Source of the DNA: a virus
Virus record (IMG/VR): IMGVR_UViG_3300013137_000003
Location: 1-48,135 of that record
Strand: one strand, 5' to 3'
Length of the DNA stretch: 48,135 bases
Shown one piece after another: positions 124 to 44,543 of this stretch (within the stretch, counting starts at the first letter, position 1; each line of letters opens with the position of its first letter). Under the pieces are notes generated by a model. That model saw nothing but the letters and a program-made list of their open reading frames with translations. It was not told where the DNA came from and ran no database searches. Made by a program: the position numbers and the translations under genes.

Positions 124-2648
124 CACTTGATGTAACAGATTATGATATAGCTACTCTACATAATTTTGGAGTTGTCGGAAATGAGTTGACACCAGCTGGA
201 TGGAAAACTATAGATATAACAGATCAGTTGCAGATTGCTACAGATAATCTTGAAAGTTCTTTTAGCATTAGGTTTGTAGGTGATAAGGAAGTCTATGACT
301 ATCAGCGAACCTTCTGGATGTTAGCTTCAGCTCTTTACATTCCAGCTTATCTATCCGTAGTCTACGGTGTAATCCCTGCAGCTCCGATTGGTGTTGTTGC
401 TACTAAGTATCAGAATGATAGAGTAACAATTACCTGGAACAAAAGTACAGATGCAACTGGGTATAGGGTCTACAGAGATGGTGTGAATATCTATGGAACG
501 TTAGGTGATGTTAATACCCTTGATGACTTCGGTACTGCTGCTCCAGTGATTACTCCAGGAACTGCAACTGCTTCTGATGGGTCAAGTGCTGCTCATGTAG
601 AGTTGGTCTTAACTGGTTGTTCGATAGCTAACGGAACCACTCATACATACACAGTAGTTGCTGTAAATGCTTATGGAGAAAGTGCTCCAAGCAGCTCTGA
701 CACAGGTTATCGTTTAGCTGGTACTAGATCCTACCAATGGAAAAGGTCAGCAACTGATAACCCAGCTGATCCCAATTTTAGTATCATAGCAGGTGCAACT
801 TCAACTTCACACAATGATACTGAAGCACCAGCTGAGGGTGTTGGAAGGTATTTTAAGTGTCAGATAAGTGCTCCTGGTTCAGTAACTGTTCATTCAACTT
901 CTGATAGGGGATATAGGCTTGTAACAGTTCCTACTAATGTCCAGGCTACGGAGAATAGTACAGCGCAAGTTGTGATAACTTGGACCAAGGTAACTGGAGC
1001 CACTAATTATCGAGTATACAGAAACGGAATTGATATAAGTGGATTGTTAGGTGATGTAGCTACCTATACAGATACGACTGGTGACCCTCCAGTAATTACC
1101 CCAGGTTATGCAGCTGCTTCAGATGGACTTTATTCAGATCATGTTGAGGTAGGTGTAACAGGTGAGTCAGTAGCTAATGGAACAGCTTATAATTACACAG
1201 TTGCAGCTGTCCTTGGTGGAACGTTAGGTGCACAAAGTGTTGGAGACATTGGGAGGCGAATAGCATCTACATTAACCTATCAATGGCAAAGGAGTGCTGC
1301 TGACAGTGATGCTACATATTCTGACTTAGTAGGTGAAGTTACTAAAGCAATCACTGATGTGATACCTGATGAATATGGTAGATATTATAAATGTGTGATT
1401 GACTCTACAGATGCAGTCCAAGCCATTTCAACATCTGATCGGGGATTTCAGACTTACGGATGGGAAACTCAGCCACCTGCTTCTATCTACATTCGCATTA
1501 GAGGAATTTGGACTAACTTCCCTCCAGATCCTATAAACCACAATCTTGACAAGCTCTTTAACCTTGAGGAGTTGTTAGGTGACAATTGGACAGTTAATAT
1601 TTCCGCTCATGGAAATATGCTCAATGTAACGATAGTTCCACTCCATAATGAAGTAACTGTAACTGTCTTGGCAGAAGGTGATGAGTTTGTTGGAGGTGTA
1701 TGGGATAAAGGTGATATACCTGACATAGCCATCTCCATTGTCTCAGGTGTCATGTTCACCCTTGGCAGAAATAACTTAGTTATGTGGTCTAAGATAGGCC
1801 ATATGCAGTTTGAAATAGATCAGTCTAACGAAGCCGGAAATCGTAGAATGGACTGGGGAGGTGGGATTCATGCTATAGCGAAACTCCTTGGAAAGGTTAT
1901 AGTTTATGGTGACAATGGAGTTTCTATTCTCACTCCTTCAGGTGTAAACTGGGGAATGGAAACTATTGATAGAGTAGGAGTTAAAAACAAAGGAGCAGTT
2001 GCTGGAGATGAGTATGTTAACTTCTATGTTGATAAGCAGAGTAGGTTGTGTATGTTGACTAACAAACTCTTTATGCTAGACTATTCAGAATTCCTCAGTG
2101 CAATGGGAACTATCATTTTATCCTATGACAAAGTTAAGGAATTACTCTACATATGCGATGGAACTTACGGATATGTCTACAGTGCAAAGAATGAAAGTTT
2201 CGGTGAAGGACCTGTTGACATTACAGGGTTGGATTCGAGGGATGGGATCATCTACGTTGCATCTCCAGCTGCACTAACAGTTCCTAAATTTGAGATCTGT
2301 ACAGACATCTTTGATTTCAAAACGAGGAAGAATAAAACAGTTGAGGCACTGGAAATTGGAACAGATAAACCAAATGACTTGTTTTCCTCTATTGATTACA
2401 GAACGAGTTACAAAGATGACTTCAGACAACTTGGTTGGTTCCTTGTGAATCCAGATGGAAAATCCTATCCTAAGTGTTATGGAGTTGAATTTAGGTTCCG
2501 CCTCCGTTCTTTGGTAAAGGAAGATTTCGAAGTTGACTACATAAAGGTTTATGGCCGAGTACATGGGTTTAGTTCATTAGATATATCTGATTCAGCTAAC
2601 TCATTACTATCTAATGTTCTGACCAAGAGTGGTAGGGAAATTGGTTAG
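1..2648 (+). CDS. Large tail/nozzle-like virion protein, C-terminal part (continues from 46770)
   Basis: The frame is open from base 3 and joins in frame to the gene starting at 46770, giving a 1,296-residue protein; this piece is residue 416 onward. Visible in order: a first fibronectin-III-like module (about 541-650, 'VTITWNKSTDATGYRVYRDG'), an Ig-like module (about 653-720, 'SYQWKRS' to 'YFKCQIS'), a second fibronectin-III-like module (about 722-835), a second Ig-like module (about 838-901), and a C-terminal beta-rich domain of about 390 residues. That last domain sits where the tail hub or nozzle protein lies in podovirus genomes, just before the ejection proteins. The tail role is inferred from position and architecture. 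The TTG at 186 is not the real start. The TAG stop overlaps a palindromic repeat. Confidence 0.75.
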   Translation, partial: GKVIVSASLNYYLNQVYQGDYITAYPGALNVSLHRVSDYGTLDVTDYDIATLHNFGVVGNELTPAGWKTIDITDQLQIATDNLESSFSIRFVGDKEVYDYQRTFWMLASALYIPAYLSVVYGVIPAAPIGVVATKYQNDRVTITWNKSTDATGYRVYRDGVNIYGTLGDVNTLDDFGTAAPVITPGTATASDGSSAAHVELVLTGCSIANGTTHTYTVVAVNAYGESAPSSSDTGYRLAGTRSYQWKRSATDNPADPNFSIIAGATSTSHNDTEAPAEGVGRYFKCQISAPGSVTVHSTSDRGYRLVTVPTNVQATENSTAQVVITWTKVTGATNYRVYRNGIDISGLLGDVATYTDTTGDPPVITPGYAAASDGLYSDHVEVGVTGESVANGTAYNYTVAAVLGGTLGAQSVGDIGRRIASTLTYQWQRSAADSDATYSDLVGEVTKAITDVIPDEYGRYYKCVIDSTDAVQAISTSDRGFQTYGWETQPPASIYIRIRGIWTNFPPDPINHNLDKLFNLEELLGDNWTVNISAHGNMLNVTIVPLHNEVTVTVLAEGDEFVGGVWDKGDIPDIAISIVSGVMFTLGRNNLVMWSKIGHMQFEIDQSNEAGNRRMDWGGGIHAIAKLLGKVIVYGDNGVSILTPSGVNWGMETIDRVGVKNKGAVAGDEYVNFYVDKQSRLCMLTNKLFMLDYSEFLSAMGTIILSYDKVKELLYICDGTYGYVYSAKNESFGEGPVDITGLDSRDGIIYVASPAALTVPKFEICTDIFDFKTRKNKTVEALEIGTDKPNDLFSSIDYRTSYKDDFRQLGWFLVNPDGKSYPKCYGVEFRFRLRSLVKEDFEVDYIKVYGRVHGFSSLDISDSANSLLSNVLTKSGREIG

Positions 2649-2671
2649 ATCGTCCAAAATTTGGATAAACT
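2647..2671. repeat. Dispersed palindrome copy 1
   Basis: Left arm AGATCGTCCAAA, right arm TTTGGATAAACT. Its first AG belongs to the TAG stop of the tail gene, and a GGAGGA ribosome site follows at 2672-2677. Confidence 0.9.
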
Positions 2672-2684
2672 GGAGGACAGCTTA

Positions 2685-3167
2685 ATGCACAAGATGATTG
2701 AAACAGAGCCGAGAGAGGGTTATGAAACAGGGCAGTTGGAGTTCATCTTATTACCAATACAGATTCATATGTTCTGGGACGCAATAAAGTACGCATACGC
2801 ACAGTCGAGTGGTGTTCCTGAAAAGTTATTATCAGTAGCTTTCCATTCCTTACTTGTTGACTTGCTATGTGGAGTAGCAGCATGTGCTGTAGTGTTGACA
2901 AAGGAGAGACGAGTTGAGAGCGTTGTTGTAGTTCATGTTATTGAGGAAGTGCTGACTAAGGACAAAACATTGTTCATAGATGCACTCTATTCCTTCTTGC
3001 CTGCATCCCAAGATGATTGGTTGAAGAAAGGTGCTAGGTTAATTGAGTTCGCTCAATTACAAGAATGTAAGCGGATAAAAGGAAACACAGGTAATAAGAA
3101 ACTTCACGAAATAATTCAAGCATTTGGAGTGACTGAAGTTTATAGATGCTATTCACTTGATTTTTGA
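2685..3167 (+). CDS. GNAT-like internal virion protein
   Basis: 160 residues from the ATG at 2685, which has GGAGGA seven bases upstream; the upstream in-frame TTG lies inside the palindrome and has no ribosome site. The C-terminal half ('ALYSFLPASQDDWLKKGARL' then 'ECKRIKGNTGN' and a final 'FGVTEVYRCYSLDF') has the pattern of the small acetyltransferase-fold proteins at the start of podovirus ejection clusters, such as the T7 gp13 class. Its position, first of five genes ending in a lytic transglycosylase-bearing ejection protein, supports this. Whether it binds acetyl-CoA cannot be judged. The next gene's ribosome site overlaps its TGA. Confidence 0.5.
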   Translation: MHKMIETEPREGYETGQLEFILLPIQIHMFWDAIKYAYAQSSGVPEKLLSVAFHSLLVDLLCGVAACAVVLTKERRVESVVVVHVIEEVLTKDKTLFIDALYSFLPASQDDWLKKGARLIEFAQLQECKRIKGNTGNKKLHEIIQAFGVTEVYRCYSLDF

Positions 3168-3178
3168 GGAGACATAAA

Positions 3179-4024: not shown

Positions 4025-4036
4025 AGGAGAATTGAG

Positions 4037-4414: not shown

Positions 4415-5193
4415 ACCTAAGCAATGTCAACCCAGCGAACCTGAGTCCAGAATTAATGACAGCGGCATTGCAATTACAGCAAGGGCAGCAGAGGATTGGT
4501 CTTGAGTCTGCCAATGTAGGATTGAGAGCAGGAGAGCTCGAACGAGGTAGAATGTCTGACACTGTAGATGCCTTGTATAAAGCAACTGCAATGAGACATA
4601 CTGAAGCTGAGACAAAGAGATTAGAGTCTGGAGATGCTGACAAAACAGCTGAGATTAGAAACTATGAATATGCAAAGGCACATGGATATACTGGAACAGT
4701 GGAGCAGTGGAAGAGTGTAGCTGATACCACAAGTATCAAGGACTATGAATACGCTGTTGCTAAAGGTTTCAAAGGTAGTTTCATCGACTGGAAAACTGAA
4801 TTAGCTAAGGCTCAAGCTACTCAGGTAAATATAGGAGGTGCTGTTGAGAAACATAAAGCTATATCACAACTCAAAGGTCAAGACTACTTTAACAATCCTG
4901 ACTGGATAGATGATGTGCATAAATTTACTGATAGCAAAGAGTCACGTAGAGCTATCAGTCGAGCGGTAAGTGATGAGGAGTCTAAGGCTAAGAGAAAACT
5001 TACCAATGAAGAATGGGCAGAAGCTGAAGACAGAGCCAGAATCAGACGTGGATTGTCTTATATAGAAGACAAAATAGAAACAGCTGGTGGTAAAGCAACT
5101 AAGGCTAAATGGACAGGTGATGGTAGTGCTCTTGTCTTTACTGTTACTTGGAAAGATGGTTCGTCTCAACAATTAAGATATACTGTGAGGTAG
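4405..5193 (+). CDS. Internal virion protein with repeated E-Y-A-x-A-x-G-[YF] motif
   Basis: 262 residues if started at the TTG at 4405, which overlaps the previous gene by 10 bases. A weak AAGG lies four bases upstream and no ATG is available before residue 18, so the start is uncertain. Two copies of a short motif ('YEYAKAHGYTGTVEQWKS' and 'YEYAVAKGFKGSFIDWKT') are separated by about 27 residues. Such motifs recur in phage ejection and tail proteins. The first 70 residues are helical and Gln-rich. The C-terminus ends in a small beta-like segment ('SALVFTVTWKDGSSQQLRYT'). It precedes and is probably co-translated with the giant ejection protein. Confidence 0.7.
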   Translation: MGLDLSNVNPANLSPELMTAALQLQQGQQRIGLESANVGLRAGELERGRMSDTVDALYKATAMRHTEAETKRLESGDADKTAEIRNYEYAKAHGYTGTVEQWKSVADTTSIKDYEYAVAKGFKGSFIDWKTELAKAQATQVNIGGAVEKHKAISQLKGQDYFNNPDWIDDVHKFTDSKESRRAISRAVSDEESKAKRKLTNEEWAEAEDRARIRRGLSYIEDKIETAGGKATKAKWTGDGSALVFTVTWKDGSSQQLRYTVR

Positions 5194-5195
5194 CT

Positions 5196-8100
5196 ATGGG
5201 AATGTTGCTTGATTTACTGGATGAGAAAGAAGACCAGAACCTTACCGATCTCGCTGATCAACGACCTAAGACATTTGACTTTGCCTGGGATGAGAAATCT
5301 ATACCATATAGATTGAAAGTCGAAGCGGCTGAAAGGGAGCATGGGATTCCCAAGAACCTTTACGCAAGGATGCTTCAACAGGAGAGTAAATTTAATCCTA
5401 AGGCAAAGTCAAATGCAGGTGCTGAAGGTATAGCACAGATCGTTAGAAAATACCATCCAGGTGTCGATCCTTACAATGTAGATCAGGCAATACCTTACGG
5501 TGCGAAGTATCTGAGACAGCTCTATGACCAGTTTCAAGATTGGGGCAAGGCTGTTGCAGCTTACAATGAAGGACCTAGGGCCACAGCTGAAGGTCGGTTA
5601 CCTGATGAGACAAAGGAATATGTAGGTAGAGTCTATGGTGGAGTTGAAGATGAGAAAGGGATTAGTCTACTTGATTTAATAGACAGACCAAGAACTCAGA
5701 TTCAACCTAAACCTATACCTAAACCTCAAGAGTTCCAAGGTCCTAAGCAGAGATATGATGAAGCTGGGAACCCCATAGGTAAAAATGGAACTCCTTATCC
5801 CTTTATCTCATGGACAGGGAAAGGAGTTGGGAATGCGAGTGTTCTTTTTCCTATAACTATGTCTTCACTCTCTGATACTGACATGAAGAGTTTCTTGAAA
5901 CATTCAAAGTATGTTGGTGAGAGTTTCAAGTCAATGCCAGTAACTTTGTTTAATTCAATAGCTTCATATCTTCCAACTTATTGGGGACCTCCTATACTAT
6001 TTGGTCTGCATACTTATTTAACTAGTCTCGGAGTGAAAGGAGATCCAGATATAGCAAAAGCAGATGCAGACAAAGTAGCGATGATAACTAGTAAATATGC
6101 AGATAAGATATTTAAGATCAGAAATACAAAAGTAGGTGCAGCCCAAGAAGCTATGCTGACTGCCCCTCTCAGTTGGCCAAAGCTAGCTTTTGAGTATGTG
6201 TCTGAAGTATCGAAACTCAAAGAACTCGCTGCAAGAGGTGATAAGTATATACCTACTAAAGTGTCAAAAGTTATGGGGCACATGGCTAATATGGCAACTG
6301 ATTTACTATCATCTGTAATGGCTCTAAAAGGTGGTCATACAGGAATCTCCGGTGCAGGTAAGATAGCTGAGAGACTTAACAAAATGTATGTTAAGTCTAC
6401 AGCGAAGGAAGTTGCCAGGAGAAAGGGAACTATAGATACACTTGATCCAAAGGCAGCTGATAATTTAGTAAACGAAGTGAAATTCTTCCAAGAAGCAAGG
6501 GAGGCACAAAAGTCCTATGATAAACTTATTAGGGAGTTAGTAGATGAAAACATAGCTAAGGACAAAGCTGAAGCAGCATTGGTTAAGATGAAGGAGAGTA
6601 AGACTAAAGCTGAAGGTGAGAAGAAGGTTAAGATAGTTAAAGAGAAAGGTAAGGAACCTAAGGTTGAAATCCCTGTTGAAACCTCTGTTGAAACTCCAGA
6701 GGAAATTCCGAGCGGTCCATTACCTCTGACCGAAGAAAACATAGTTAAGTTTCTTGAAGGGCGAGGGTATAGTAAGGAAGATGCCATTGAGATGGCTAAG
6801 TATGATCTTGAATCCAAAGATATGGATGCACTTGATTTTGACTACCAAGATCAAAAAGGTGTATGGAGAAGCAAATCAGTCAATACGATTGATGAGTACG
6901 GTTTGTATTTAGACGGTCTTGAGGAAGTTAAATCTACTCCGACAAAGAAGAGGTCTGAACCTTATACAGAAGTAGACGAACATATTGGAACTGACAAACC
7001 TGAAGGATTGAAAGGAAATGAATCGCTCTTTAGGGACTCAGATGCAGAACATACAGAGTTGATGAAACGCTCTTATAATGAAAGGATGAATTCAGTTCGG
7101 AGTGATCCTGAGGTGATGACCAGTTACCTAATCAATGAGGTTAATAGGCATCTCAATGGGAAGGAAGTGGACATTGAGACGGCTCGTAATCAGTTGAGTG
7201 AAATCGCTGCAAGAGCAGATGAACTCCAAATGATGTTTGAAGATCCTAATGACTTTAGATCGTTTAGAGACTTTGTGAGTGAAGCAGCTGAGTGGGCAAG
7301 AAAATCAGACCGTCCAAAAATTGGACGAACTGCGAGCGAATCAACTCGAATGAATACGATGATTCCTTTGGATAAGGTCCCTGAGACCGTTAGTAGAATG
7401 ATTGAAGAGATAGCAAGAGTATCTGGAGGGATTAGGTCTAAGGATCTGTTTAGGAACAGAGAGATATATGATCAGACTGGTTACTGGCTAGGAATGGATT
7501 GGAGATGGAGGTATGAAATTGATCCTGATAGCTTTGAATACTCTGTGCCTAGGAATCCAGATACACCTACATCGTCTGGTGTTATGTTCCCTGGAGGACC
7601 CAAAAAAGGTCCCTTTAAAATAGGTGAGTTGTTAAAAGGTTCTGGTATGGATAACCTTCGTAGAGCTATTCCATCAATAGATGATATTACTGTAAAAAGA
7701 GATCCATTATTGAAAGTTAATGCTTTATATAGAGCAAGAAATAAAACTATATCTGTCAGAGATTTTTATGATAAATCTGCAGTATTTCATGAGCTATCTC
7801 ACGCAATCAATAGTGAATTAGGTTCAAAACATCCTTTCCTTGGTACTAACACTTCAATTGAGATAAGGAGGCTTCATAATGAGAGATTGATAGATATCCT
7901 GAATCAACTTGAAGGATTGTCTAAAAACGAAGATGTTAAGTCAACTGTCAGAGCAGCTATTGAGTTAGCTAAGGAGGAAAGTATTAAGGAACATCCTAGT
8001 AATACACTCTATACATACTTCTTCGATGAACTCCTTCCTGAATTAAGAAAGAAAGATCCAGATGTTATAAAGGAATATGATCCAACTATAATTCCAGAAG

Positions 8101-11100: not shown

Positions 11101-12581
11101 ACATAGACTATCTCAAGGAAGGTGGAGGGCTGGAGTTCCTCGTTCACCAAGGGAGGTTGTTTCAGAGAGGGAGACATGTAGGGAGTAAGACGCAGAAGGC
11201 TATGGACTTCCTTGGTTACATGGGAGAGACATCTGAGATTATGACTAGGTTAGCGATTCGTGAGAGGGCATTGAGACAAGGAAAGACACCTGAAGAGGCT
11301 ACGTTTATAGCTCGTGACTATATGGACTTTAATCAAGGTGGAGGGACAGCTAAGGCAATTGATCAAGCGTTCCCTTATTTTAATGCAACTATTGTGGCAT
11401 CGAGAGGGATCGGAAGAGCTATGATAGAGAATCCTATTTCGAGTGCTTATAAGATAGCACAGCTAACGGCACTGACTACAGGGATTTATATAGCCGCACA
11501 AGGTTATGCTCCTGAAACAACGCAGTCATTAAAAGGTGACATTAATGCTGAGAATAACTTAATCATCCCTTTTGGTGACTGGTTTGGTTTTGAGGATTCA
11601 AAGGGTCAGATGGTGTATCCTTATCTTAAATTACCTCTCGATACATTTCAGAAGTTTTTCAAAGCAGTGGGTGAGGCAGGGGTTGATTATCACTATGGAA
11701 AGGACGTAGACACTACGAGAATTGCTCAGGCATTTAAGCAGTTGTCTCCAGTTGATTTGTCAGCCCTTCCGCCTTCAGCAGCTGGCACGTTAGGTTATAT
11801 GGCTAATAAAGATTTCTGGAGGATGGAAGATATCTGGAAACAGAGTAGTAAAGAGTTTGAGTGGAGGATGCCTAAAGCGTTAAGTGGGAATGAAGTAGGT
11901 GGGAGTGAAGAGGAATATATTCCAGGGAAGACGCCACAAGCTATGGTTGATTTAGGTAAAGCAACTGGGTTGTCTCCAGAGAGAATGAAATACTTTGGTG
12001 AGCAGATCATTACCAAAGATAATTACTTCGCTGGATTGTTAGGCCATGCGTATGACCAAGCGTTTAGTGACCTTCCGAAGAAGGAAAGGCAGATGCATTT
12101 CTTTGAAGCACTTGCTAGGACTCCAGTTGCTAAACGATTCATTGGGCTTACTAATCCTTACTCTCAGCATGCTAAGTCAATAGATGATGCGAGACAGTGG
12201 GATGAAGCTATGAGAACCAGTCAGAAATTAGGCCTCGATGCGAGAGCTGAGGGTTATCTATTCTACAACAATCAAACGAAAAGTGACGTAGATAGATACA
12301 TTAATAGTTTCAAAGATCCTGATGTTAGAGATAGGTTGGAAGATAGGTTCCAGTTCCAAATTGACACTAAGAACCTTCCTAATAGATCATTTTGGTTACG
12401 GTTGCAGGGACTTTCAACTGAGGCAAGGGCTAAGGCATATGTAGATAGATTAGACAAAGCTTCACCAACAGATGCTGCATCATTAAGGAGGGAGGAAATG
12501 ATAGTAGACCTCGCAGGTGGAGTGCTTACTGATGAATTCTATGATGAAGTTTCTAAACTTCGTCGTGGTCGTGATCGTTAG
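5196..12581 (+). CDS. Giant polyvalent ejection protein: lytic transglycosylase + zincin + ART-like + LPD domains
   Basis: 2,461 residues from the ATG at 5196, with GTGAGG five bases upstream; the longer frame to 5148 overlaps the previous gene and has no ribosome site. Residues about 20-135 form a family-1 lytic transglycosylase ('QESKFNPKAKSNAGAEG' with the catalytic Glu, then 'AAYNEGP'), which would open peptidoglycan during infection. A Lys/Glu-rich linker follows. HELSH at residues 865-869 is a zinc-metalloprotease motif. Around residue 1,050, 'VWHGAGKVIDKF' and 'GLYVSSEHGVGKSYA' look like the ADP-ribosyltransferase domain of polyvalent proteins. 'LYSNIPID' occurs twice (near 8302 and 9759, 20 identical bases). 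The last 900 residues resemble a large polyvalent-protein-associated domain. The whole probably enters the host with the DNA. A dispersed palindrome lies in frame near residue 705. Domain calls other than the transglycosylase and HExxH are by pattern only. Confidence 0.85.
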   Translation: MGMLLDLLDEKEDQNLTDLADQRPKTFDFAWDEKSIPYRLKVEAAEREHGIPKNLYARMLQQESKFNPKAKSNAGAEGIAQIVRKYHPGVDPYNVDQAIPYGAKYLRQLYDQFQDWGKAVAAYNEGPRATAEGRLPDETKEYVGRVYGGVEDEKGISLLDLIDRPRTQIQPKPIPKPQEFQGPKQRYDEAGNPIGKNGTPYPFISWTGKGVGNASVLFPITMSSLSDTDMKSFLKHSKYVGESFKSMPVTLFNSIASYLPTYWGPPILFGLHTYLTSLGVKGDPDIAKADADKVAMITSKYADKIFKIRNTKVGAAQEAMLTAPLSWPKLAFEYVSEVSKLKELAARGDKYIPTKVSKVMGHMANMATDLLSSVMALKGGHTGISGAGKIAERLNKMYVKSTAKEVARRKGTIDTLDPKAADNLVNEVKFFQEAREAQKSYDKLIRELVDENIAKDKAEAALVKMKESKTKAEGEKKVKIVKEKGKEPKVEIPVETSVETPEEIPSGPLPLTEENIVKFLEGRGYSKEDAIEMAKYDLESKDMDALDFDYQDQKGVWRSKSVNTIDEYGLYLDGLEEVKSTPTKKRSEPYTEVDEHIGTDKPEGLKGNESLFRDSDAEHTELMKRSYNERMNSVRSDPEVMTSYLINEVNRHLNGKEVDIETARNQLSEIAARADELQMMFEDPNDFRSFRDFVSEAAEWARKSDRPKIGRTASESTRMNTMIPLDKVPETVSRMIEEIARVSGGIRSKDLFRNREIYDQTGYWLGMDWRWRYEIDPDSFEYSVPRNPDTPTSSGVMFPGGPKKGPFKIGELLKGSGMDNLRRAIPSIDDITVKRDPLLKVNALYRARNKTISVRDFYDKSAVFHELSHAINSELGSKHPFLGTNTSIEIRRLHNERLIDILNQLEGLSKNEDVKSTVRAAIELAKEESIKEHPSNTLYTYFFDELLPELRKKDPDVIKEYDPTIIPEVTHMAAMERYMLNPGEMEARLVSERLSMSFEKRASEAPWETLDRMLSEENWLPNTYSKDYAKGGTKLYSNIPIDKAIESMMKVWHGAGKVIDKFHSLESAPFRTGEGAMARGAGLYVSSEHGVGKSYADDLGERPKVTYKGKEIGFSNFGTFLPNQNYNHYEKLLEDFASGEKSFKQFRDETIANIKADTEITLKGIRDMESELVSYERGGIPSDSKSVSTLKQAIKDDVALIDKLNESLETAKSFKENDFSKSLGKRALHEIYIPEGALWLDWDKPIKETLPKEKIEELRNAIGEQYMPDVQADIGAAIANLDSNPHYAKLSSEGKIVASSIVESLARTPTSNKFNSKRQEIFANLISDEPSISFKDLSKNDRNILSDLVVDLDKSDVSAVLTKALEYVNKETGRDQYINKGSRLIISKLITKAHLSEGSTLAQKRIAKDLLDNYNANPEYAKLTEYERSVAKRIIDKVKSEDLFNKLKIDEWTNGGELYRQIDKILAKEKGTSAGDIEASKFLRDLGFAGNMYRALSGKASYKNYVLFAPEKYARVGGVKLYSNIPIDQAIKQMSKSIDGVINYMKKARGSRRPTKEVATHLKEEFIRDWIERSGNIRRDLIKKYGNEGYEIVRKASLSKGSGALASMYLKQMNKEYGAGMSKHMKDVRDTRILAIRILDIAKSAKGKKFNYPENFTPTDAANYVVGFAQKEGLNPKQAEEIIRSNDAYFEWMKKPLKDAFEVELISEKEYNDLVTHNYRRLKPAEGTIEVAEVYDAKLPRDGVRRSIYDSGIEPLQLGKKTDIFEPSSEVMALEVFNRMYNRIANNLANRELWDFAHEKPDNPFVRVKFTKEQMAEKATEIRDRMKAEGATDAAIEGAINVLNAENKIPVGWKDTFVFVKGKRERMYLSPEMAKEWVTAGPEISYKTARLLRWASGAPIVRAFATGINWAFALANLPRDVMHIWYSARSFENGKWKPIYNSNLPVYGFQMARDIAATFSDALLRKGRYIDYLKEGGGLEFLVHQGRLFQRGRHVGSKTQKAMDFLGYMGETSEIMTRLAIRERALRQGKTPEEATFIARDYMDFNQGGGTAKAIDQAFPYFNATIVASRGIGRAMIENPISSAYKIAQLTALTTGIYIAAQGYAPETTQSLKGDINAENNLIIPFGDWFGFEDSKGQMVYPYLKLPLDTFQKFFKAVGEAGVDYHYGKDVDTTRIAQAFKQLSPVDLSALPPSAAGTLGYMANKDFWRMEDIWKQSSKEFEWRMPKALSGNEVGGSEEEYIPGKTPQAMVDLGKATGLSPERMKYFGEQIITKDNYFAGLLGHAYDQAFSDLPKKERQMHFFEALARTPVAKRFIGLTNPYSQHAKSIDDARQWDEAMRTSQKLGLDARAEGYLFYNNQTKSDVDRYINSFKDPDVRDRLEDRFQFQIDTKNLPNRSFWLRLQGLSTEARAKAYVDRLDKASPTDAASLRREEMIVDLAGGVLTDEFYDEVSKLRRGRDR
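7307..7331. repeat. Dispersed palindrome copy 2 (inside coding sequence)
   Basis: Left arm AGACCGTCCAAA, right arm ATTGGACGAACT. It lies in frame in the giant ejection gene and encodes DRPKIGRT, far from either gene end. Confidence 0.85.
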
Positions 12582-13794
12582 TTTGTCCATTTTTTGAACG
12601 ATCTTGGAACTCAAGATAGTGAATTACAGAATCGACTCCAGGGCGTTTAATTACCTTGATATGTTTGCCTACTTCGAGAGTGGTTAATACTCGATCCATA
12701 GTAAACTTATCCATATTGCTTTCAAAATACCTGGAGAAGTCTGAGACTAAAATGTCAGGAGTTTCTGACATCTCCAGGAACAATAAAGCGTCGCTGATTA
12801 ATGAAGCGATGTCTGACTTACCAATACCTCTGAAAGTGGTTCCCATCTTTACTTCAACTTCGGCAAGTAGTTTATCGGCACGAGCTATGTCATCCTTTAA
12901 CAAGACCATGTTATTATCTCGACTAGCGCTACACACCATTGATAGAGATAATAAGTGATTACGCCTACGTCCAATATAGCCGTCGAACTTCTTGTCTTTA
13001 AATGGAGGATTGACATCAGCTTTGTAACACCATTCAGTGTAGTAAGCCATTGCATCTTCAGTGAAATGAAAGACACCTGCCATTAGAGAGATTTGTTCCA
13101 AGTCGTGGATTAAGTGTTGTTGGAGTTCTATCTCACGCATTGAAGTGGAAGGAAAGATTACTAACTTATCACGTTTGTCTTCGTTGACAAAGATAATGCG
13201 TGAAGTTAGGCCCGCTCCTATGGCTTCGATAGGGAGTGCAGTTTGTATGTTATCAGGAGTGGTTCCAGCCAAGATGTTAGTCCAAACTCCAATTACTTCT
13301 TCCTTATCCCTTTTAATAGTATCATAAACCCATCTGTTCTGACAGTCATACCAGTCACAAAGGGCAGAGATTAATTCCCTATTATGATAACCAAGGAATA
13401 CAGTAAACTCGTTGGAGAAGATTGTTAGAGATGAGTGGAATATCTGTTCTCCAGTTGCCAAGTCTATGTCGGTTAAGTTGGTTTCCTTCATCCTACGGAT
13501 CAGAGCTTGGAGGGATGTGGCTTGGGCTGCAAGACGAATTGATGGAACTTGTTCGAGAATGTCGTAAGCATACTTCATCGCAGTGCCTTTGCCTGTAGCC
13601 GAGGGACCGACAAGGACGATGTAGAAGTTGGGGTAAAAGGTTAATGATATTCCTATGTCGACCCTGCATTTCCTCTGCAATGCAGAAGCAACTGCCGAAA
13701 TAGCAGTCCATTTTCTGAATAGACGAGGAGGCTCAGATTCTTCTGATAGCAACATAAAGCCATCAATCCAGTCTGGAAGATTTCTATTAGACAC
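12553..13794 (-). CDS. DUF3987-like P-loop ATPase, probable replicative helicase/primase component
   Basis: 413 residues from a GTG start with GGAG about 12 bases upstream. Walker A is GPSATGKGT at residues 63-71. The preceding 'DGFMLLSEESEPPRLFRKWT' and the wide spacing to later acidic segments are typical of the DUF3987/YfjI-type ATPases found in phage replication modules. It follows the polymerase gene in the same operon. Its last codons run through a palindrome and overlap the convergent giant ejection gene by 29 bases, so the two transcription blocks end on top of each other. It would act on DNA in the cytoplasm. The helicase assignment is by fold pattern and neighbours. Confidence 0.65.
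   Translation of the reverse strand: MSNRNLPDWIDGFMLLSEESEPPRLFRKWTAISAVASALQRKCRVDIGISLTFYPNFYIVLVGPSATGKGTAMKYAYDILEQVPSIRLAAQATSLQALIRRMKETNLTDIDLATGEQIFHSSLTIFSNEFTVFLGYHNRELISALCDWYDCQNRWVYDTIKRDKEEVIGVWTNILAGTTPDNIQTALPIEAIGAGLTSRIIFVNEDKRDKLVIFPSTSMREIELQQHLIHDLEQISLMAGVFHFTEDAMAYYTEWCYKADVNPPFKDKKFDGYIGRRRNHLLSLSMVCSASRDNNMVLLKDDIARADKLLAEVEVKMGTTFRGIGKSDIASLISDALLFLEMSETPDILVSDFSRYFESNMDKFTMDRVLTTLEVGKHIKVIKRPGVDSVIHYLEFQDRSKNGQTNDHDHDEV
12580..12604. repeat. Dispersed palindrome copy 3 (convergent junction)
   Basis: Left arm AGTTTGTCCATT, right arm TTTGAACGATCT. It starts with the AG of the TAG stop of the giant ejection gene, and lies in frame in the last codons of the opposite helicase gene (DRSKNGQT). 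No ordinary terminator is seen at this junction. Confidence 0.85.
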
Positions 13795-13797
13795 AGT

Positions 13798-13956
13798 TTA
13801 TGCATTCTCCTGTTTCCGTATAGTTTGAAAAAGTTTAGTAGTTTCTAACATAAGTTCCATTAGAACATCGTAGATATCACGAACTGCGTCACCAGTATGT
13901 CTATCAAGAGATAGCTGGACTATCATTGATAAGATGTTTTGTATTGAGGGAGTCAT
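13798..13956 (-). CDS. Small helical protein, 52 residues
   Basis: ATG at 13956 with AAAGGAG four bases upstream. The start lies inside the last codons of the DNA polymerase gene (53-base overlap in another frame), and the TAA falls just before the helicase GTG. The product begins MTPSIQNILSMIVQLS and contains 'AVRDIYDVLMELMLETTKLF', an amphipathic helical pattern. The strong ribosome site, the tight packing between two replication genes and the clean fit in an otherwise empty gap argue it is real. Function unknown. Confidence 0.65.
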   Translation of the reverse strand: MTPSIQNILSMIVQLSLDRHTGDAVRDIYDVLMELMLETTKLFQTIRKQENA

Positions 13957-16459: not shown

Positions 16460-16484
16460 AGTTTGTCCAAATTTTGGATGAACT
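16460..16484. repeat. Dispersed palindrome copy 4
   Basis: Left arm AGTTTGTCCAAA, right arm TTTGGATGAACT. On the - strand the order is TAG stop of the ParB-methyltransferase gene, palindrome, GGAGG, then the TTG start of the polymerase, the same layout as copy 1. Confidence 0.9.
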
Positions 16485-17805
16485 ATTGATTCATTAAATG
16501 AGCCTTGACAAGGAAGGAATCCTTGTAGGCTTTTGAAAGTTCAAATCCAGTCGCTGTCATTCCGAGTTGGGATGCAGCCAAGATTCCATTACCTGATCCA
16601 AGGAAAGGAATTAAAATACGGGAACCTGCGAAGGCAAATGTTTCATAGATTTCTTTCATCAGTTCGATTGGCCGCTCTGTTGGGTGAGTCTTTTGATTAG
16701 CAGGAACGGGTGAGAAGTGAAAATGGTTCGCACGTCCAGGTTTGTTGAGGGCAGGTTGTCCTTTCCACGCATAGAAGAACATTTCGTAGGAGTTTGATAG
16801 CCGAACTGCAGGGTTCATGTTTTGACCTGGAATGCCCTTAGTCCAGATACCACACATTCGAGTGGTTGAAAATCCAGCGTTGTTCAATTCCTGGAATACA
16901 ATCTCAAACCATGGTTGAGGAGCGAACCAACAGATTAACCAAGAATGCTGAGTCATGACTCGGTAACATTGAGCGAAAAGTTTTGCAAGGAAAACTTGGT
17001 ATTCCTCGACTGGAATTTCGTTATAGTTTTCCAAAATGTACGATGACTCACCATCTTTCTTCTTCTTACCCGTCAAGTCGATAGCGTAAGGAGGGTCGAT
17101 CTCGACGAGATGGATTATGCTGTCAGGGACTTCTTTAATTCCTTCGAAGAAATCCTTAACCACGAAACACTTTGATAACTGATGAACAGTGCTGTCAGTT
17201 TTATGTACTTCGAGTTGTTCAACTATTGCTTGCTTCATCGCTGCTTCATCGATCTTTTTAAGAATCTTAGATGCATCTGAAGCGGTTCGACAGGTTTCAA
17301 ATAACTCAGGAAATGCCTCACGAGCGTTTGCACGCTTGATTGCTTCTGAGACCTCAGTAGGTGATTTAGCACCTATTATTTCTGCAGTGTCTCGCATTCC
17401 CCAGCCTGAAGCCCCAGGTCCAGGCGCTTTAACACCGTGAGTTTCCTGTTGCATAGTATGGATGTCTAAGGTGAGTTGATCTAATTCGTAGAACTCCATA
17501 TCTTTACGCCAGAAGTTTTCGGCCTTCTCAATCATCTTCATTTCGAGTTCAGATAGATCTCTGTTGTATATGCGGACTGGGATTTCAAGCACTTGGTTGG
17601 CAAGGAGAACCGTATACCTCCGTTCGCCTGCAAGGAGTTTATAAGTCCCATCTTCGTTGTCCCTTACTGCTAACGGAGCTATGAGTCCACTCTCCTTCAT
17701 ATTTTCTTCAAGGCCAACTAAGTCTCCCATTACTTTCCTTGCCCTATCATCAACAATTACTGCTGTAATAGGAATCATTCCAACTTTTCCTACATCTATT
17801 GCCAT
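16483..17805 (-). CDS. ParB-like / DNA methyltransferase fusion
   Basis: 440 residues. The N-terminal 120 residues carry ParB boxes: 'LLAGERRYTVLLA' (58-70) and 'EKAENFWRKDMEFYELDQ' (93-110). A helix-turn-helix-like stretch follows (about 138-160, 'RDTAEIIGAKSPTEVSEAIK'). The C-terminal half is a beta-class amino-methyltransferase with DPPY at 237-240 followed by FLGSGNG at 401-407, so it should methylate adenine-N6 or cytosine-N4. Such fusions are common in phages; their targets are usually unknown. It is co-transcribed with the polymerase and could protect phage DNA, mark it, or bind the dispersed palindromes. That last idea is speculation from the ParB-like domain. Confidence 0.88.
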   Translation of the reverse strand: MAIDVGKVGMIPITAVIVDDRARKVMGDLVGLEENMKESGLIAPLAVRDNEDGTYKLLAGERRYTVLLANQVLEIPVRIYNRDLSELEMKMIEKAENFWRKDMEFYELDQLTLDIHTMQQETHGVKAPGPGASGWGMRDTAEIIGAKSPTEVSEAIKRANAREAFPELFETCRTASDASKILKKIDEAAMKQAIVEQLEVHKTDSTVHQLSKCFVVKDFFEGIKEVPDSIIHLVEIDPPYAIDLTGKKKKDGESSYILENYNEIPVEEYQVFLAKLFAQCYRVMTQHSWLICWFAPQPWFEIVFQELNNAGFSTTRMCGIWTKGIPGQNMNPAVRLSNSYEMFFYAWKGQPALNKPGRANHFHFSPVPANQKTHPTERPIELMKEIYETFAFAGSRILIPFLGSGNGILAASQLGMTATGFELSKAYKDSFLVKAHLMNQ

Positions 17806-17810: not shown

Positions 17811-18014
17811 TTATTCTCCTTTGATTAGTTTTAACAACTCAGCTGCCATATCAGTATCGACTTTGGGTATAAGTTGTTTTTTACTTCTTATCGTTGTACT
17901 CTTTCTTACTTCAGGTGTTCTGCGACTGAGACGAATCTGACGAAGGCGTTCGAGAGCCTCGTCTGTGCTCATGTCTGTTATTGAAGTGTAGTTAAGAGAT
18001 TCCAAATCAGCCAT
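17811..18014 (-). CDS. Small basic phage protein, 67 residues
   Basis: ATG at 18014 with GGGAGG six bases upstream, overlapping the end of the upstream gene by eight bases. The product has an acidic helical N-terminus ('STDEALERLRQIRLSRRTP') followed by a basic stretch ('RKSTTIRSKKQL'). Short proteins with this E-A-L-x-R-L-R-x-I-R-x-S-R-R pattern are frequent in tailed phages and have no known function that I can name. It sits directly upstream of the ParB-methyltransferase and is probably co-translated. Confidence 0.75.
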   Translation of the reverse strand: MADLESLNYTSITDMSTDEALERLRQIRLSRRTPEVRKSTTIRSKKQLIPKVDTDMAAELLKLIKGE

Positions 18015-18261: not shown

Positions 18262-18263
18262 AG

Positions 18264-21331: not shown

Positions 21332-21356
21332 GGTTTGTCCAAAATTTGGATGAACT
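21332..21356. repeat. Dispersed palindrome copy 5
   Basis: Left arm GGTTTGTCCAAA, right arm TTTGGATGAACT. On the - strand it follows the TAG stop of the Sak4-like gene, sharing its AG, and precedes a GGAGG at 21318-21322 that has no full-length gene at normal distance. Confidence 0.9.
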
Positions 21357-24439: not shown

Positions 24440-24889
24440 TTATTCCTCGTTAGTTGGTTCTTCCTCATTTATAGATTCAGATCGTTCAGGTTGAAGATTG
24501 TTAGTAGGTAGTGCATTACTCATTGATCCTATGTTACGGAGGATAGAGAGAGGTGCTGTTGACTTGTCGTAGTCAATAGTTCTGCGATCTCTAAGATCAT
24601 CAGTTCCTACCATTTTAGGAAAAGGAGGTTGGAAGCCTTCTGAAGCACCATGAAGTGCAGGTTCAGGCCAAACTCCAGGACCTGGTTTCAGTTCGTTCAA
24701 AATTTGGACAAACTTGCCCTTAGGTTCCTTGACGTAAGGAGGAGCAGGATCGATGGAGAAGTCTGGTTGGATAGGCTCATCGAGACAAATGTGAGGTTCG
24801 ACGATTTCCACTATCCTTCCTAGACCTTTAATCGCCTTACGATGGACTTTCAAAGTCATTCCGCATTCAGAACAATATAGTTTATTCAT
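24440..24889 (-). CDS. Zinc-ribbon-start phage protein, hypothetical
   Basis: 149 residues. The N-terminus has C6-x-x-C9 ('LYCSECGM') and a later Cys in 'PHICLDEP', a possible incomplete zinc ribbon. The rest is Pro-rich and probably extended, with 'DDLRDRRTIDYDKSTAPLSI' in the middle. Palindrome copy 6 lies in frame and encodes KFVQILNEL, in a different codon phase from the other coding copies. The ATG overlaps the HIRAN gene stop (ATGA). Function unknown. Confidence 0.7.
   Translation of the reverse strand: MNKLYCSECGMTLKVHRKAIKGLGRIVEIVEPHICLDEPIQPDFSIDPAPPYVKEPKGKFVQILNELKPGPGVWPEPALHGASEGFQPPFPKMVGTDDLRDRRTIDYDKSTAPLSILRNIGSMSNALPTNNLQPERSESINEEEPTNEE
24690..24714. repeat. Dispersed palindrome copy 6 (inside coding sequence)
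   Basis: Left arm AGTTCGTTCAAA, right arm TTTGGACAAACT. It is mid-gene in the zinc-ribbon-start protein, one of only two copies far from a gene boundary. Confidence 0.85.
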
Positions 24890-26494: not shown

Positions 26495-26519
26495 AGTTTG
26501 TTCAAAATTTGGATGATCT
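26495..26519. repeat. Dispersed palindrome copy 7
   Basis: Left arm AGTTTGTTCAAA, right arm TTTGGATGATCT. It is in the gap upstream of the gene starting at 26473. A short frame through it encodes KIIQILNKL, close to the KFVQILNEL encoded by copy 6. Confidence 0.88.
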
Positions 26520-28528: not shown

Positions 28529-28553
28529 AGATCCTCCAAAATCTGAACGAACT
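28529..28553. repeat. Dispersed palindrome copy 8 (degenerate, doubles as ribosome site)
   Basis: Left arm AGATCCTCCAAA, right arm TCTGAACGAACT. On the - strand it lies exactly between a TAG stop and an ATG. Its changed arm reads TTTTGGAGGATCT, supplying GGAGG. Confidence 0.75.
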
Positions 28554-28875: not shown

Positions 28876-28900
28876 AGATCATTCAAAATTTGGACGATCT
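28876..28900. repeat. Dispersed palindrome copy 9
   Basis: Left arm AGATCATTCAAA, right arm TTTGGACGATCT. The upstream - strand gene ends inside it, reading K-D-R-P-N-F-E then TGA. Both arms have the AGAT form. Confidence 0.9.
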
Positions 28901-29660: not shown

Positions 29661-29685
29661 AGATTGTTCAAATTTTGGACGAACT
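29661..29685. repeat. Dispersed palindrome copy 10
   Basis: Left arm AGATTGTTCAAA, right arm TTTGGACGAACT, in the non-coding segment about 80 bases upstream of the gene starting at 29583. Confidence 0.9.
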
Positions 29686-30864: not shown

Positions 30865-30889
30865 AGATCGTGCAAAAATTGGACAAACT
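30865..30889. repeat. Dispersed palindrome copy 11
   Basis: Left arm AGATCGTGCAAA, right arm ATTGGACAAACT, within the divergent control region among the GTAACA units. Confidence 0.88.
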
Positions 30890-30958
30890 ACGTAACAAAT
30901 GAGAGGTTCCATGCCTGGGTCCCATGCCTAACGTTTATAGTTTAGTTATAGAAAGGTA

Positions 30959-30973
30959 GTACAAAATTTGTAC
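30959..30973. repeat. Perfect 15-base palindrome
   Basis: GTACAAAATTTGTAC. Its CAAAATTTG core is the same as the core of the dispersed palindrome, but the flanks differ. It lies about 50 bases upstream of the rightward -35. Confidence 0.85.
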
Positions 30974-31019
30974 AATTTCGTAACAATAGTACCTACCTAC
31001 AACCGTACAGAATAATACC

Positions 31020-31048: not shown

Positions 31049-31089
31049 GATCTCAACTAAAGTTAAAAAAATTTTTCTGAGAAAATTTT

Positions 31090-31662
31090 ATGGAAACTGA
31101 ATTAGTTACAAGAAATGGCCTTTATGGATTTGAGTTCCGTGACCTCGATGGGAGGAGAGCTGAAGATGGAGAACGTAAAACTTACGAAATCAAACAGCTT
31201 TGGCAACGCTCTCATGAAATTGTGAGATTGGCTGCTCTTGGATGGAAGCAAACTGAAATCGCCCAAATCTTAAACATTCATCCTCAAACAGTCAGCAATA
31301 CACTCAATTCAAACCTGGGTGAGTTAAAACTTTCCGAAATTCGCCAGGATAAAGATCGTGAAGCGAAAAAGGTCATAGAGCGTGTTCGTGTTTTAACCAA
31401 TCGTGCTCTTGACGTTTATCAAGAGATTTTCGAAAACGAAGATGGTTCGGCTTCCGTTAAAGATCGAAAGGATGTAGCTGACACAGTCCTACTCGAACTC
31501 TCTGGTCTCCGTGTTCCTACTAAAGTCCAATCCAGTTCCACTCACATTGGACTTACAAAGGCTGACCTTGAAGAATTCAAGCAGCGTGCAATCACTGCTG
31601 CTCGTGAATCTGGAATGATCGTAGACGTTGAACCTGAGGAAGTTAATGAACAAACTACTTGA
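31090..31662 (+). CDS. Probable terminase small subunit (helix-turn-helix)
   Basis: 190 residues. The ATG is preceded by AT-rich sequence with only a weak GAG. A helix-turn-helix is clear ('GWKQTEIAQILNIHPQTVSN', about residues 54-73), followed by charged oligomerisation-type helices ('VRVLTNRALDVYQEIFENED') and a tail with 'TAARESGMIVDVEPEE'. This is the usual build of small terminases, which pick the packaging site; that site is often next to the gene, and a repeat cluster lies just upstream. The large terminase is 4.3 kb downstream. A transcription regulator is the main alternative. Confidence 0.65.
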   Translation: METELVTRNGLYGFEFRDLDGRRAEDGERKTYEIKQLWQRSHEIVRLAALGWKQTEIAQILNIHPQTVSNTLNSNLGELKLSEIRQDKDREAKKVIERVRVLTNRALDVYQEIFENEDGSASVKDRKDVADTVLLELSGLRVPTKVQSSSTHIGLTKADLEEFKQRAITAARESGMIVDVEPEEVNEQTT

Positions 31663-39606: not shown

Positions 39607-39624
39607 TAACAACTGGAGACTAAA

Positions 39625-42660: not shown

Positions 42661-42667
42661 TATAACT

Positions 42668-43090: not shown

Positions 43091-43103
43091 CCTTAATCAA
43101 AAC

Positions 43104-43128
43104 AGTTCATCCAAATTTTGGACGAACT
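43104..43128. repeat. Dispersed palindrome copy 15
   Basis: Left arm AGTTCATCCAAA, right arm TTTGGACGAACT: one of the most symmetric copies. It lies in the gap just before the capsid ribosome site. Confidence 0.92.
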
Positions 43129-43149
43129 TAACAATAGGAGGTAATAACT

Positions 43150-44454: not shown

Positions 44455-44487
44455 CTGCTAACCTCCTGGTGTTTAAGCCAGCTATGG

Positions 44488-44521
44488 TCTCGGGGGCGGT
44501 AGTGTGGAGCCGCTCTCGAGA
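44488..44521 (+). terminator. Strong hairpin after the capsid gene
   Basis: A 12-bp stem (44488-44499 with 44510-44521, two G-T pairs, six G/C-rich steps) whose last three bases are the first of palindrome copy 16. There is no T-run, so it may stabilise capsid mRNA or act as a partial stop. Confidence 0.55.
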
Positions 44522-44543
44522 TCATTCAAATTTTGGACGAACT
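44519..44543. repeat. Dispersed palindrome copy 16
   Basis: Left arm AGATCATTCAAA, right arm TTTGGACGAACT, joined to the hairpin after the capsid gene and just before the next ribosome site. Confidence 0.92.

Follow-up and report, generated by a model that had tools for sequence, protein, structure and literature searches.

What are the 16 copies of a single 25-letter palindrome, dispersed along a stretch of phage DNA, for, and which protein reads them? The stretch analysed, here called the window, comprises 48,135 nucleotides and represents the viral record IMGVR_UViG_3300013137_000003, which is probably a complete genome because it carries a 123-base direct terminal repeat. All 16 copies listed in a preliminary description of this DNA are present exactly where it had placed them (Table 1). 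Their score against shuffled sequence had been suggested there as a check, and the sites stand far above it. With a symmetric position weight matrix (PWM) built from the 16 sites, these score 30.9 to 40.2 bits and the next-best position in the window scores 4.5 bits. Across 40 Markov-shuffled sequences, a total of 2 places reached at least 10 bits (a mean of 0.05 per shuffle), with a top score of 22.1. Likewise, a consensus search allowing up to 3 mismatches returned exactly 16 copies in the window, and the reversed-pattern control returned none. Five copies start between 26.49 and 30.9 kb, not six as had been counted before; six are obtained only with the degenerate copy at 30954, which is also included in the site count of the window in the clade-wide and junction tallies below.

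Positions 3 and 23 of the site are non-complementary in 11 of the 16 copies, the same number as originally given. This mismatch, and the fact that the covariation described below is with a protein, speak against an RNA stem. A reading of the sites as promoters or terminators was also rejected, as such matches are not clearly commoner in positions 12000-48135 of the window than in shuffles (sigma70-like, 37 versus 41.7 and 27 versus 35.0; terminator-like, 9 versus 14.3 and 12 versus 11.4). Site 43104 is the one site that scores as terminator-like, owing to its palindrome.

Table 1. Palindromic sites and the putative site-binding protein in the window.
Feature	Coordinates	Strand	Remarks
ParB-HTH-DNA methyltransferase fusion, 440 aa, proposed site binder	16483..17805	-	Pfam, PDB profiles, AF2, covariation
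ParB_N (CTPase-fold) stretch, aa 23-93	17527..17739	-	GERR motif inside; ENxxRKD motif just after
Helix-turn-helix region, aa 134-161	17323..17406	-	recognition helix from aa 149
aa 148-156, top covarying segment	17338..17364	-	covariation scan
N6_N4 methyltransferase stretch, aa 231-430	16516..17115	-	DPPY and PFLGSG motifs intact in window phage
Site 1	2647..2671	.	at stop codon of 186-2648 / upstream of 2661-3167
Site 2	7307..7331	.	within 2477-aa ORF 5148-12581
Site 3	12580..12604	.	convergent junction, late versus replication arms
Site 4	16460..16484	.	between ParB-MTase and DNA polymerase A
Site 5	21332..21356	.	
Site 6	24690..24714	.	within ORF 24440-24889
Site 7	26495..26519	.	
Site 8	28529..28553	.	
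Site 9	28876..28900	.	3' end of 28879-29583
Site 10	29661..29685	.	
Site 11	30865..30889	.	
Degenerate 17th copy, AGGTAGTACAAAATTTGTACAATTT	30954..30978	.	PWM score low (4.5 bits); status unsure
Site 12	33398..33422	.	
Site 13	35924..35948	.	stop of 34828-35925 and start of terminase large subunit
Site 14	38633..38657	.	
Site 15	43104..43128	.	upstream of major head gene
Site 16	44519..44543	.	

A ParB-HTH-methyltransferase fusion protein

The product of 16483-17805 matches the Pfam models ParB_N (PF02195, E=1.1e-8, above the cut-off) and N6_N4_Mtase. Its profile matches in the PDB are, on the ParB side, Noc (7ng0, 7e-17, the best), Spo0J (1vz0), ParB (6t1f) and KorB (8qa8, E=2e-6), and they also include N4/N6 methyltransferases (MTases). 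An AF2 model with a pLDDT of 79.5 contains a helix-turn-helix (HTH) with the recognition helix at residues 149-164; a single-sequence model (pLDDT 32.6) was set aside. The HTH region is matched by generic HTH models alone (HTH_23 in 3 of 13 A3 members, best E 0.002), with no HTH_ParB match among these 13 members in the Pfam scan, and the HTH subprofile did not match ParB in the PDB. The nucleotide box GERR/GGRR is present in every aligned ORF except that of G013, whose N-terminus is short, and the box ENxxR in every aligned ORF except that of L084 (ENFYHKN).

The C-terminal ParB dimerisation domain is not present. Because the N6_N4 methyltransferase occupies the C-terminal half, the protein is a fusion variant and not a canonical ParB. 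The order of its methyltransferase motifs (DPPY, then PFLGSG) is that of the beta class, and structural comparison of this part with CcrM gave a Z of 22.8 over 220 residues (rmsd 3.0); the VIA-align listing for the fusion protein consisted of methyltransferases only, a bias of which the tool itself warns.

Co-occurrence of the fusion gene and the palindromes

A motif search in related phages had been proposed, and it did reveal palindrome families: dispersed 25-bp sites, in many cases differing in their core, occur in 28 of the 29 contigs made up of the window and its 28 relatives. The fusion gene is present in 27 of these 28 site-bearing contigs. The exception is G031, from which the ParB side is missing because this contig is a fragment that starts at a truncated polA. 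The contig without sites, G018, lacks the fusion gene at an otherwise intact locus, the gene's neighbour directly adjoining polA. No ParB ORF was found in it at E≤10, and no palindrome family with the PWMs of the 28 genomes or in a de novo search. Two further contigs picked by protein similarity, L162 and L166, carry palindrome families; no site was seen in L165, a 5.1-kb fragment with the fusion gene, and no clear family was found in L046. A scan of IMG/VR with the consensus pattern matched 39 stretches, many of which are probably chance matches, with a single match and a low PWM score.

Covariation of the recognition helix and the site

Among 39 non-redundant protein-site pairs, the distance between HTHs correlates with the distance between sites (r=0.65). 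The partial correlation is 0.61 when the rest of the protein is controlled for (p=0.0005, the minimum for 2000 permutations), and that of the methyltransferase domain is -0.20. Near-duplicates (G007, G024, L059, L064, L082), L046 entirely, 1 of 9 L080 sites and 1 of 4 L057 sites were dropped from this set, and fragments with fewer than 3 sites (e.g. L011) were left out. When 35 conserved proteins were scanned segment by segment, residues 148-156 of the fusion protein tracked the site sequence best (0.627), and the runner-up, a segment of 31090-31662, was not far behind (0.562). The 35 queries represent 33 distinct ones, the pairs 45347/41875 and 4037/4405 each having collapsed on one family, and every third segment was scanned for ORFs of at least 600 aa.

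The correspondence can be read at the level of a single residue. Q149 goes together with A7 (an A at position 7 of the site) in 5 of 5 genomes and R149 with G7 in 1 of 1, and where residue 149 is neither of these the site has T7, in 35 of 35. On a tree made without the HTH, 5 changes are counted for Q149 and 5 for A7, and all 5 independent pairs agree; the sign test on these gives p=0.0625, and 5 pairs cannot reach 0.05. L162 and L166 were not used in deriving this code and obey it. According to PDB sequences, residue 149 aligns with the specificity position occupied by R173 in Caulobacter ParB and by Q in Noc. The available text of PMC7383237 describes experiments in which this position reads G or A, and the published code (R-G, Q-A) agrees with the one found here. 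Judged from these sequence relationships, the fusion protein made by the phage itself is very probably the binder of the 16 palindromes. The preliminary proposal that the palindrome is a site on DNA to which a dimeric protein binds is supported.

Placement, spacing and orientation of the sites

In 26 contigs, 277 of 408 sites are at least 40% intergenic, compared with 2.5-7% of intergenic sequence. Particular junctions recur: in 18 of 21 relatives the ortholog of the 2477-aa gene has a site no more than 100 bp from its 3' end, and sites are found upstream of polA in 12 of 24 and 3' of 28879-29583 in 14 of 20. Sites are enriched at convergent junctions (57 of 387 sites versus 83 of 1454 junctions), and co-directional junctions hold 303 of 387 sites versus 1287 of all 1454 junctions. 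Asymmetric copies in 24 contigs, counted without G007, G024, G020 and W01, show a weak orientation bias, with 110 copies running with transcription and 77 against it (p=0.019).

Site density is about 1 per 3 kb and the largest gap does not exceed about 7 kb. In all 11 terminal-repeat contigs of the spacing test, the sites are spaced more evenly than randomly chosen gene junctions (p≤0.0085); compared with uniform placement, spacing is more even in 10 of them at p<0.05, the remaining one having a p-value of 0.0785. W01 was left out of this test although it has a terminal repeat as well. The sites of the window, too, are found mostly at gene junctions and are spaced more evenly than chance.

Proposed mechanism

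We propose that the phage's own fusion protein binds specifically to the 16 palindromes and probably loads there, and that it would act as a clamp in three steps. From the sequence data we assign to this account as a whole a probability of roughly 0.6. In the first step, the HTH of the fusion dimer would read the central 13 bp, positions 7-19, of the palindrome (compare parS, NBS and the KorB operators). This step is strongly supported by the sequence covariation, and we consider it highly probable. In the second step, nucleotide binding would close the dimer, which as a clamp would then move off its site and slide, as described for ParB, Noc and KorB; the conserved nucleotide motifs of ParB_N make this about an even bet. 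In the third step, with sites as dense and gaps as limited as described above, clamps would reach the whole genome, so that the fused methyltransferase could act in cis on phage and not host DNA. The fusion itself and the even spacing hint at such action in cis, which we put forward tentatively.

The third step might serve self-marking and protection from host nucleases, the phage DNA being methylated or otherwise marked. That these apparently non-temperate phages mark themselves in this way, some 16 centromere-like sites loading sliding clamps and methylation or shielding being confined to array-bearing DNA, is perhaps slightly more doubtful still. In methyltransferase motif IV, G020 has a degenerate sequence (DIDY) and there are alterations in W01 (DFPY), G010 (DSPY) and G022/G024 (DPIY), yet their sites are kept, and methylation may therefore not be the shared function. 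Sites would diversify because the recognition helix and the sites coevolve within each lineage, and this coevolving specificity of site and clamp would give each phage lineage a private address. We know of no other methyltransferase whose target molecule is set by clamp-loading sites beyond a short target motif.

The arrays supply candidate cognate sites for the ParB-methyltransferase fusions of one clade. Together with 41 naturally occurring protein-site pairs, from which an amino-acid-to-base code can be read, and with the natural co-absence in G018, these sites make the function of the fusion directly testable. If the clamp account is true, ParB-type site arrays would also occur in phages that are apparently not temperate and have no ParA, and many ParB-like protein/site pairs would become usable as tools.

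Alternative readings

With convergent junctions enriched, the sites may have a role as transcription boundaries. Wider control in the manner of KorB or stoperators, in which a junction-bound or clamped fusion protein silences or blocks operons, for example to delay late genes or to insulate convergent arms, seems unlikely. It would suit the intergenic location of the sites, their recurrence at particular junctions, the convergent enrichment and the slight bias with transcription, and the related KorB silences from sites up to more than 1 kb away (PMC11790492, available text). However, no site overlaps the control region's strongest sigma70-like promoters (28815, 30723, 31020), the majority of sites lie between co-directional genes, and promoter control has no need of even spacing. 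Moreover, no KorA-like second regulator was identified, and lysogeny genes were not found in the 29 contigs.

Four proteins had originally been named as possible binders, and the covariation favours the fusion protein, whereas the other three do worse. The protein of 28879-29583 covaries weakly with the sites (best segment 0.34), and neither it nor that of 31090-31662 (HTH, TerS-like) was found in the site-bearing G022 and G024. The 88-aa product of 18007-18273, ribbon-helix-helix-like by eye, could bind the site or co-bind its outer AGWT positions, which we regard as very improbable. Across 22 genomes its partial correlation with site sequence is 0.49 given polA, and 0.36 (p=0.006) given polA and the HTH; at outer positions 1-4 it outdoes the HTH (0.43 versus 0.22; 22 genomes). 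Some correlation is expected because the gene is linked. At positions 7-9 no covariation remains after correction for the HTH (-0.04). Besides, the protein was not found in G020, G022 and G024, all of which bear sites, and it is present in G018, which does not.

Partition and silencing of the stoperator or SPbeta type, both raised in the preliminary description, fare poorly. None of the 29 contigs, which include some fragments, had a match to integrase (PF00589), resolvase (PF00239) or ParA (PF13614, the AAA_31 model), whereas these were found in 14, 10 and 14 of 14 control genomes, respectively. A ParB-family protein and a parS-like core would fit a partition array of a plasmid-like phage, but such an array is very unlikely because no ParA was found, and the sites lie evenly round the genome instead of being clustered. 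Least credible of all is a lysogenic immunity repressor, maybe a small control-region protein, acting on stoperators: the many dispersed, lineage-specific sites per genome resemble those of cluster A (PMC6550527, available text), but the relative Desulfofustis phage MD01 is predicted to be strictly lytic (PMC10370329, available text), integrase, resolvase and ParA are unmatched as stated, the proteins of 28879-29583 and 31090-31662 were not found in G022/G024 and covary less, and the palindromic sites show only a weak orientation bias. A scan of genome contigs identified two loci, one on a fragment of 5.1 kb and one on a contig of 46 kb, each in a MAG; no integrated copy was seen.

Comparison with known systems

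The phiC31 conserved inverted repeats, the SPbeta repeats and the P1 C1 operators are dispersed repressor sites in phage genomes, and their repressors belong to temperate phages. To our knowledge, none of these three systems has a ParB-methyltransferase, and the stoperator repressor of cluster A is not ParB-like. Cluster A stoperators are similar in being many, dispersed, lineage-specific and correlated with the cognate protein, but they are 13 bp long, lie predominantly in one orientation and belong to temperate phages (PMC6550527).

Noc shares with the phage protein the ParB-family fold with an HTH and the Q-A/R-G code at the first position of the recognition helix (PMC7383237), and it spreads from 16-bp sites scattered round the replicon (PMC8429893, available text). 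In contrast, the phage sites are 25 bp long, have a density of about 1 per 3 kb and lineage-specific cores, and the phage protein has a DNA methyltransferase where the C-terminal dimerisation domain would be. KorB of plasmid RK2, a CTPase clamp of the ParB family whose dispersed operators number 12, resembles the phage protein in having dispersed sites on one replicon; the available text of PMC11790492 mentions no methyltransferase for KorB. The RK2 operators differ in serving promoters, and the sequence match is weak (8qa8, E=2e-6).

The domain pair of the window protein is identical to that of the ParB-CTPase-N6_N4 methyltransferase fusions of Kaljevic et al. 2025 (PMC12704722), which are described in the available text as commoner in phages than in bacteria and as of unknown function. 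The available main text gives no DNA site for these fusions, and certain ParB-fold fusions are reported in it to bind ATP or GTP in place of CTP.

Palindromes beyond the clade

Microcystis phage Mel-JY34 encodes a fusion that is 24% identical and contains 7 loosely similar 25-mers, compared with at most 4 in 30 shuffles; under a stricter setting the phage has 5. It breaks the residue-149 code, combining Q at 149 with T7, and is only suggestive of generality beyond the clade. In L024, which has no ParB, the 61 places reached by refinement of the site family are of low complexity and an artefact. The phages MD02, MD03, MD05 and MD06, from one habitat and without the fusion gene, have 0-2 copies at 25 bp (MD03 was scanned over 50000 of its 50490 bases). 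At 23 bp, however, the AT-rich MD03 gave 5 copies, so that small families can arise; MD01, the positive, gave 9.

Palindromic sites in the window and its relatives

All 16 copies of the 25-bp palindrome claimed in the preliminary description are real and lie where it placed them. With a symmetric position weight matrix (PWM) made from these 16 sites, they scored 30.9-40.2 bits versus at most 4.5 bits for the rest of the window, and a consensus search allowing up to 3 mismatches returned exactly the 16 sites, with no control matches. It had also been proposed to set the motif against shuffled sequence and related phages, and both comparisons bear the sites out: 40 Markov shuffles gave in total 2 places of at least 10 bits (top 22.1), and palindrome families were found in 28 of 29 contigs of the clade, the window included. 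These 29 comprise 27 full contigs, OP947158 and the window, the DNA polymerase used as query having yielded 42 loci. Sites were called in each genome separately by a de novo palindrome search and subsequent PWM refinement. The 28 site-bearing contigs have 6-24 sites of 25 bp each. In every one of them the weakest member reaches at least 13.5 bits (at least 19 outside contig G001), and no place beyond the family exceeds 10.6; palindrome seeds numbered 4-22 versus 1-3 in letter shuffles (three per genome). The site array is a clade-wide trait.

The site ends AG..CT are common to most genomes and the cores vary: the core is AGWTYRTYCAAA in the window, AGTYNNATTTAW in G001, AGWYSGTTAAWT in G005, AGWTRATTAAAT in G009, AGATAWATAAAW in G013, AGWTYGTTTTGR in G014 and AGTTYGAWCNAW in G015, and lies near that of the window in other genomes, such as G023. 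The ends in G020 and OP947158 are unlike AG..CT.

Features of the window considered in this analysis
Feature	Position	Strand	Remark
2477-aa gene	5148-12581		
polA	13904-16447	-	family A DNA polymerase; N-terminal uracil-DNA-glycosylase superfamily domain
ParB-MTase	16483-17805	-	440 aa; ParB_N, helix-turn-helix (HTH), N6_N4 methyltransferase
Neighbour gene	17811-18014		
88-aa protein	18007-18273		ribbon-helix-helix-like by eye
Epimerase-like gene	18264-19442		nucleotide-sugar type
Promoter-like sites	28815, 30723, 31020		sigma70-like, extended -10, near consensus
234-aa protein	28879-29583		control region; N-terminus ribbon-helix-helix-like by eye
17th palindrome	30954-30978		degenerate
Fourth protein	31090-31662		
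Epimerase-like gene	33523-34344		nucleotide-sugar type
Glycosyltransferase-like gene	34828-35925		

The degenerate palindrome, which may be a decayed site or an operator for some other protein, lies 42 bp upstream of the last, strong promoter-like site; none of the three promoter-like sites overlaps a palindrome.

Co-occurrence of ParB-MTase and sites

The ortholog search found ParB-MTase in 27 of the 29 contigs, G031 and G018 being the exceptions. G031 is a fragment that starts at a truncated polA. In G018 the neighbour gene's ortholog directly adjoins polA, no ParB ORF was found with an E-value of 10 or less, and a family was seen neither with the 28 genomes' PWMs (top 9.2 bits) nor in a de novo search for palindromes of 14-30 bp, which gave none exceeding shuffles. 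Gene and sites are thus jointly absent from G018. A second polA locus lacking the gene, the 5.7-kb fragment L083, gave no PWM match (top 7.6 bits). Among 19 fragment loci with the gene, at least 3 sites were found automatically in 14; a looser seed regained sites in L056, L057 and L080, and gave no clear family in L046. Two sites lie within the 7 kb of L011, which is nearly a copy of the window. In G022 and G024 the structural module differs, and ParB-MTase and 9-10 sites are kept; orthologs of the neighbour gene and of the 88-aa, 234-aa and fourth proteins were not found there by the ortholog search. Palindromes and ParB-MTase may be passed on together with the replication arm.

Probable recognition of the sites

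Among 39 non-redundant protein-site pairs, half-site distance over positions 4-12 correlated with that across aa 134-161, the HTH region (r=0.65; with the remainder of ParB-MTase as control, partial r=0.61, p=0.0005), and no positive correlation was seen for the methyltransferase domain (partial -0.20). The top 9-residue window in ParB-MTase was aa 148-156. This window also ranked first (0.627) when 35 conserved proteins (33 distinct) were scanned and polymerase distance was controlled for, followed by the best windows of the fourth protein (0.562), portal (0.522), major head (0.514) and the 88-aa protein (0.511). With the latter as added control, the HTH effect persisted in 22 genomes (0.65, p=0.0003) and was located at half-site positions 5-9. 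After HTH control the 88-aa protein retained a residual of 0.36 (p=0.006), and at outer positions 1-4 its correlation exceeds that of the HTH; judging from these two correlations, it is a possible helper or partner of ParB-MTase. The 234-aa protein had no family match in Pfam, PHROGs or NCBIfam.

Nearly the whole variance of site position 7 goes with residue 149 (R2 0.99). In 41 genomes, namely the 39 together with L162 and L166, both protein-found and outside the derivation of the code, Q149 occurs with A7 (5/5), R149 with G7 (1/1), and K, P, D, G or S with T7 (35/35). K149 occurs with G6 in 22/22, and G6 is also present in 9/19 without K149. On a tree of ParB-MTase minus the HTH (40 rows), Q149 and A7 each changed five times and agree in 5/5 independent pairs (for which the sign test gives its lowest reachable p, 0.0625; Fisher 1.3e-6, kinship disregarded). 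In our own alignment, residue 149 opens the recognition helix and falls in line with the R of the Caulobacter ParB motif GKSR and the Q of Noc's GKGQ; according to PMC7383237, experiments on ParB/Noc showed that R173 reads guanine 1 and Q adenine 1. The HTH subprofile did not match ParB in the PDB; the whole-protein profile matched Noc over 6-195. An AF2 model (25 sequences; pLDDT 79.5, pTM 0.53) places helices at 137-144 and 149-164 (model numbering 136-143 and 148-163), and Foldseek matched it to beta-class methyltransferases and Noc/ParB (7nfu, E=8.9e-9).

Placement and function

By mechanical gene calling made for this analysis, 277 of 408 sites in 26 contigs are at least 40% intergenic, intergenic sequence making up 2.5-7%. 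For the 11 contigs compared whose ends carry terminal repeats of 35-144 bases, spacing is in every case evener than for random gene junctions (p<=0.0085), with a widest gap of 7.1 kb; the comparison with uniform placement gave p<0.05 for 10 of them and 0.0785 for the other. Conservation of site positions in relatives, a test named in the preliminary description, held at some junctions, such as the end of the 2477-aa gene (18/21 relatives), the 3' ends of the 234-aa gene (14/20) and major head (13/22), and upstream of polA (12/24); for the median gene end, 14% of relatives carry a site no more than 100 bp away, versus about 7% expected.

The most economical reading is that ParB-MTase would load genome-wide at the sites and then act in cis; we favour it because of the even spacing, the fused methyltransferase and the clamp behaviour known for the ParB family (PMC11790492 and PMC8429893). 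Its main rival is transcription control by the site-bound protein. Sites are enriched at convergent junctions (57/387 sites versus 83/1454 junctions), and asymmetric copies show a weak bias along transcription (110 versus 77 opposite, p=0.019). The persistence of sites where methyltransferase motif IV is degenerate or changed (DIDY in G020; changed in W01, G010, G022 and G024) speaks against methylation alone. Lysogenic silencing and ParABS partition, following up earlier suggestions, are unlikely, because integrase, serine recombinase and ParA had no match in the 29 contigs, some of them fragments (positive controls 14/14, 10/14 and 14/14 genomes). The G020 methyltransferase (locus L081), with DIDY in place of DPPY and 6 palindromes still there, is perhaps catalytically dead.

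We file the array and ParB-MTase with the ParB/Noc/KorB kind, as a variant. ParB-N6_N4 methyltransferase fusions are known from phages, their function not being given in the accessible text of PMC12704722; no description of their DNA sites was found in the literature searched, subscription papers and preprints lying outside it.

Gene content

PHROGs and Pfam matches identify the window, a 48,135-base virus record whose ends share a direct terminal repeat of 123 bases, as a tailed phage. Its + strand carries the late genes (terminase large subunit, portal, major head, tail), and its - strand a replication arm (DUF3987/phage primase family, family A DNA polymerase, ParB-methyltransferase, dCMP deaminase, Sak4-type annealing protein, exonuclease, ligase). 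To our knowledge, the fusion of a uracil-DNA-glycosylase domain to a family A DNA polymerase is unusual. The phages of L006, L013 and L015 (G022, G024) have the replication module, ParB-MTase and palindromes in common with the window; the search did not find the window's structural genes there. Megablast of window positions 10000-34000 against the phage collection gave no match. By terminase comparison, the closest named relative is Desulfofustis phage LS06-2018-MD01 (OP947158.1; 44%), predicted by its authors to be strictly lytic (PMC10370329). The two epimerase-like genes lie on opposite arms, and together with the glycosyltransferase-like gene of the same phage they possibly serve DNA or surface modification.
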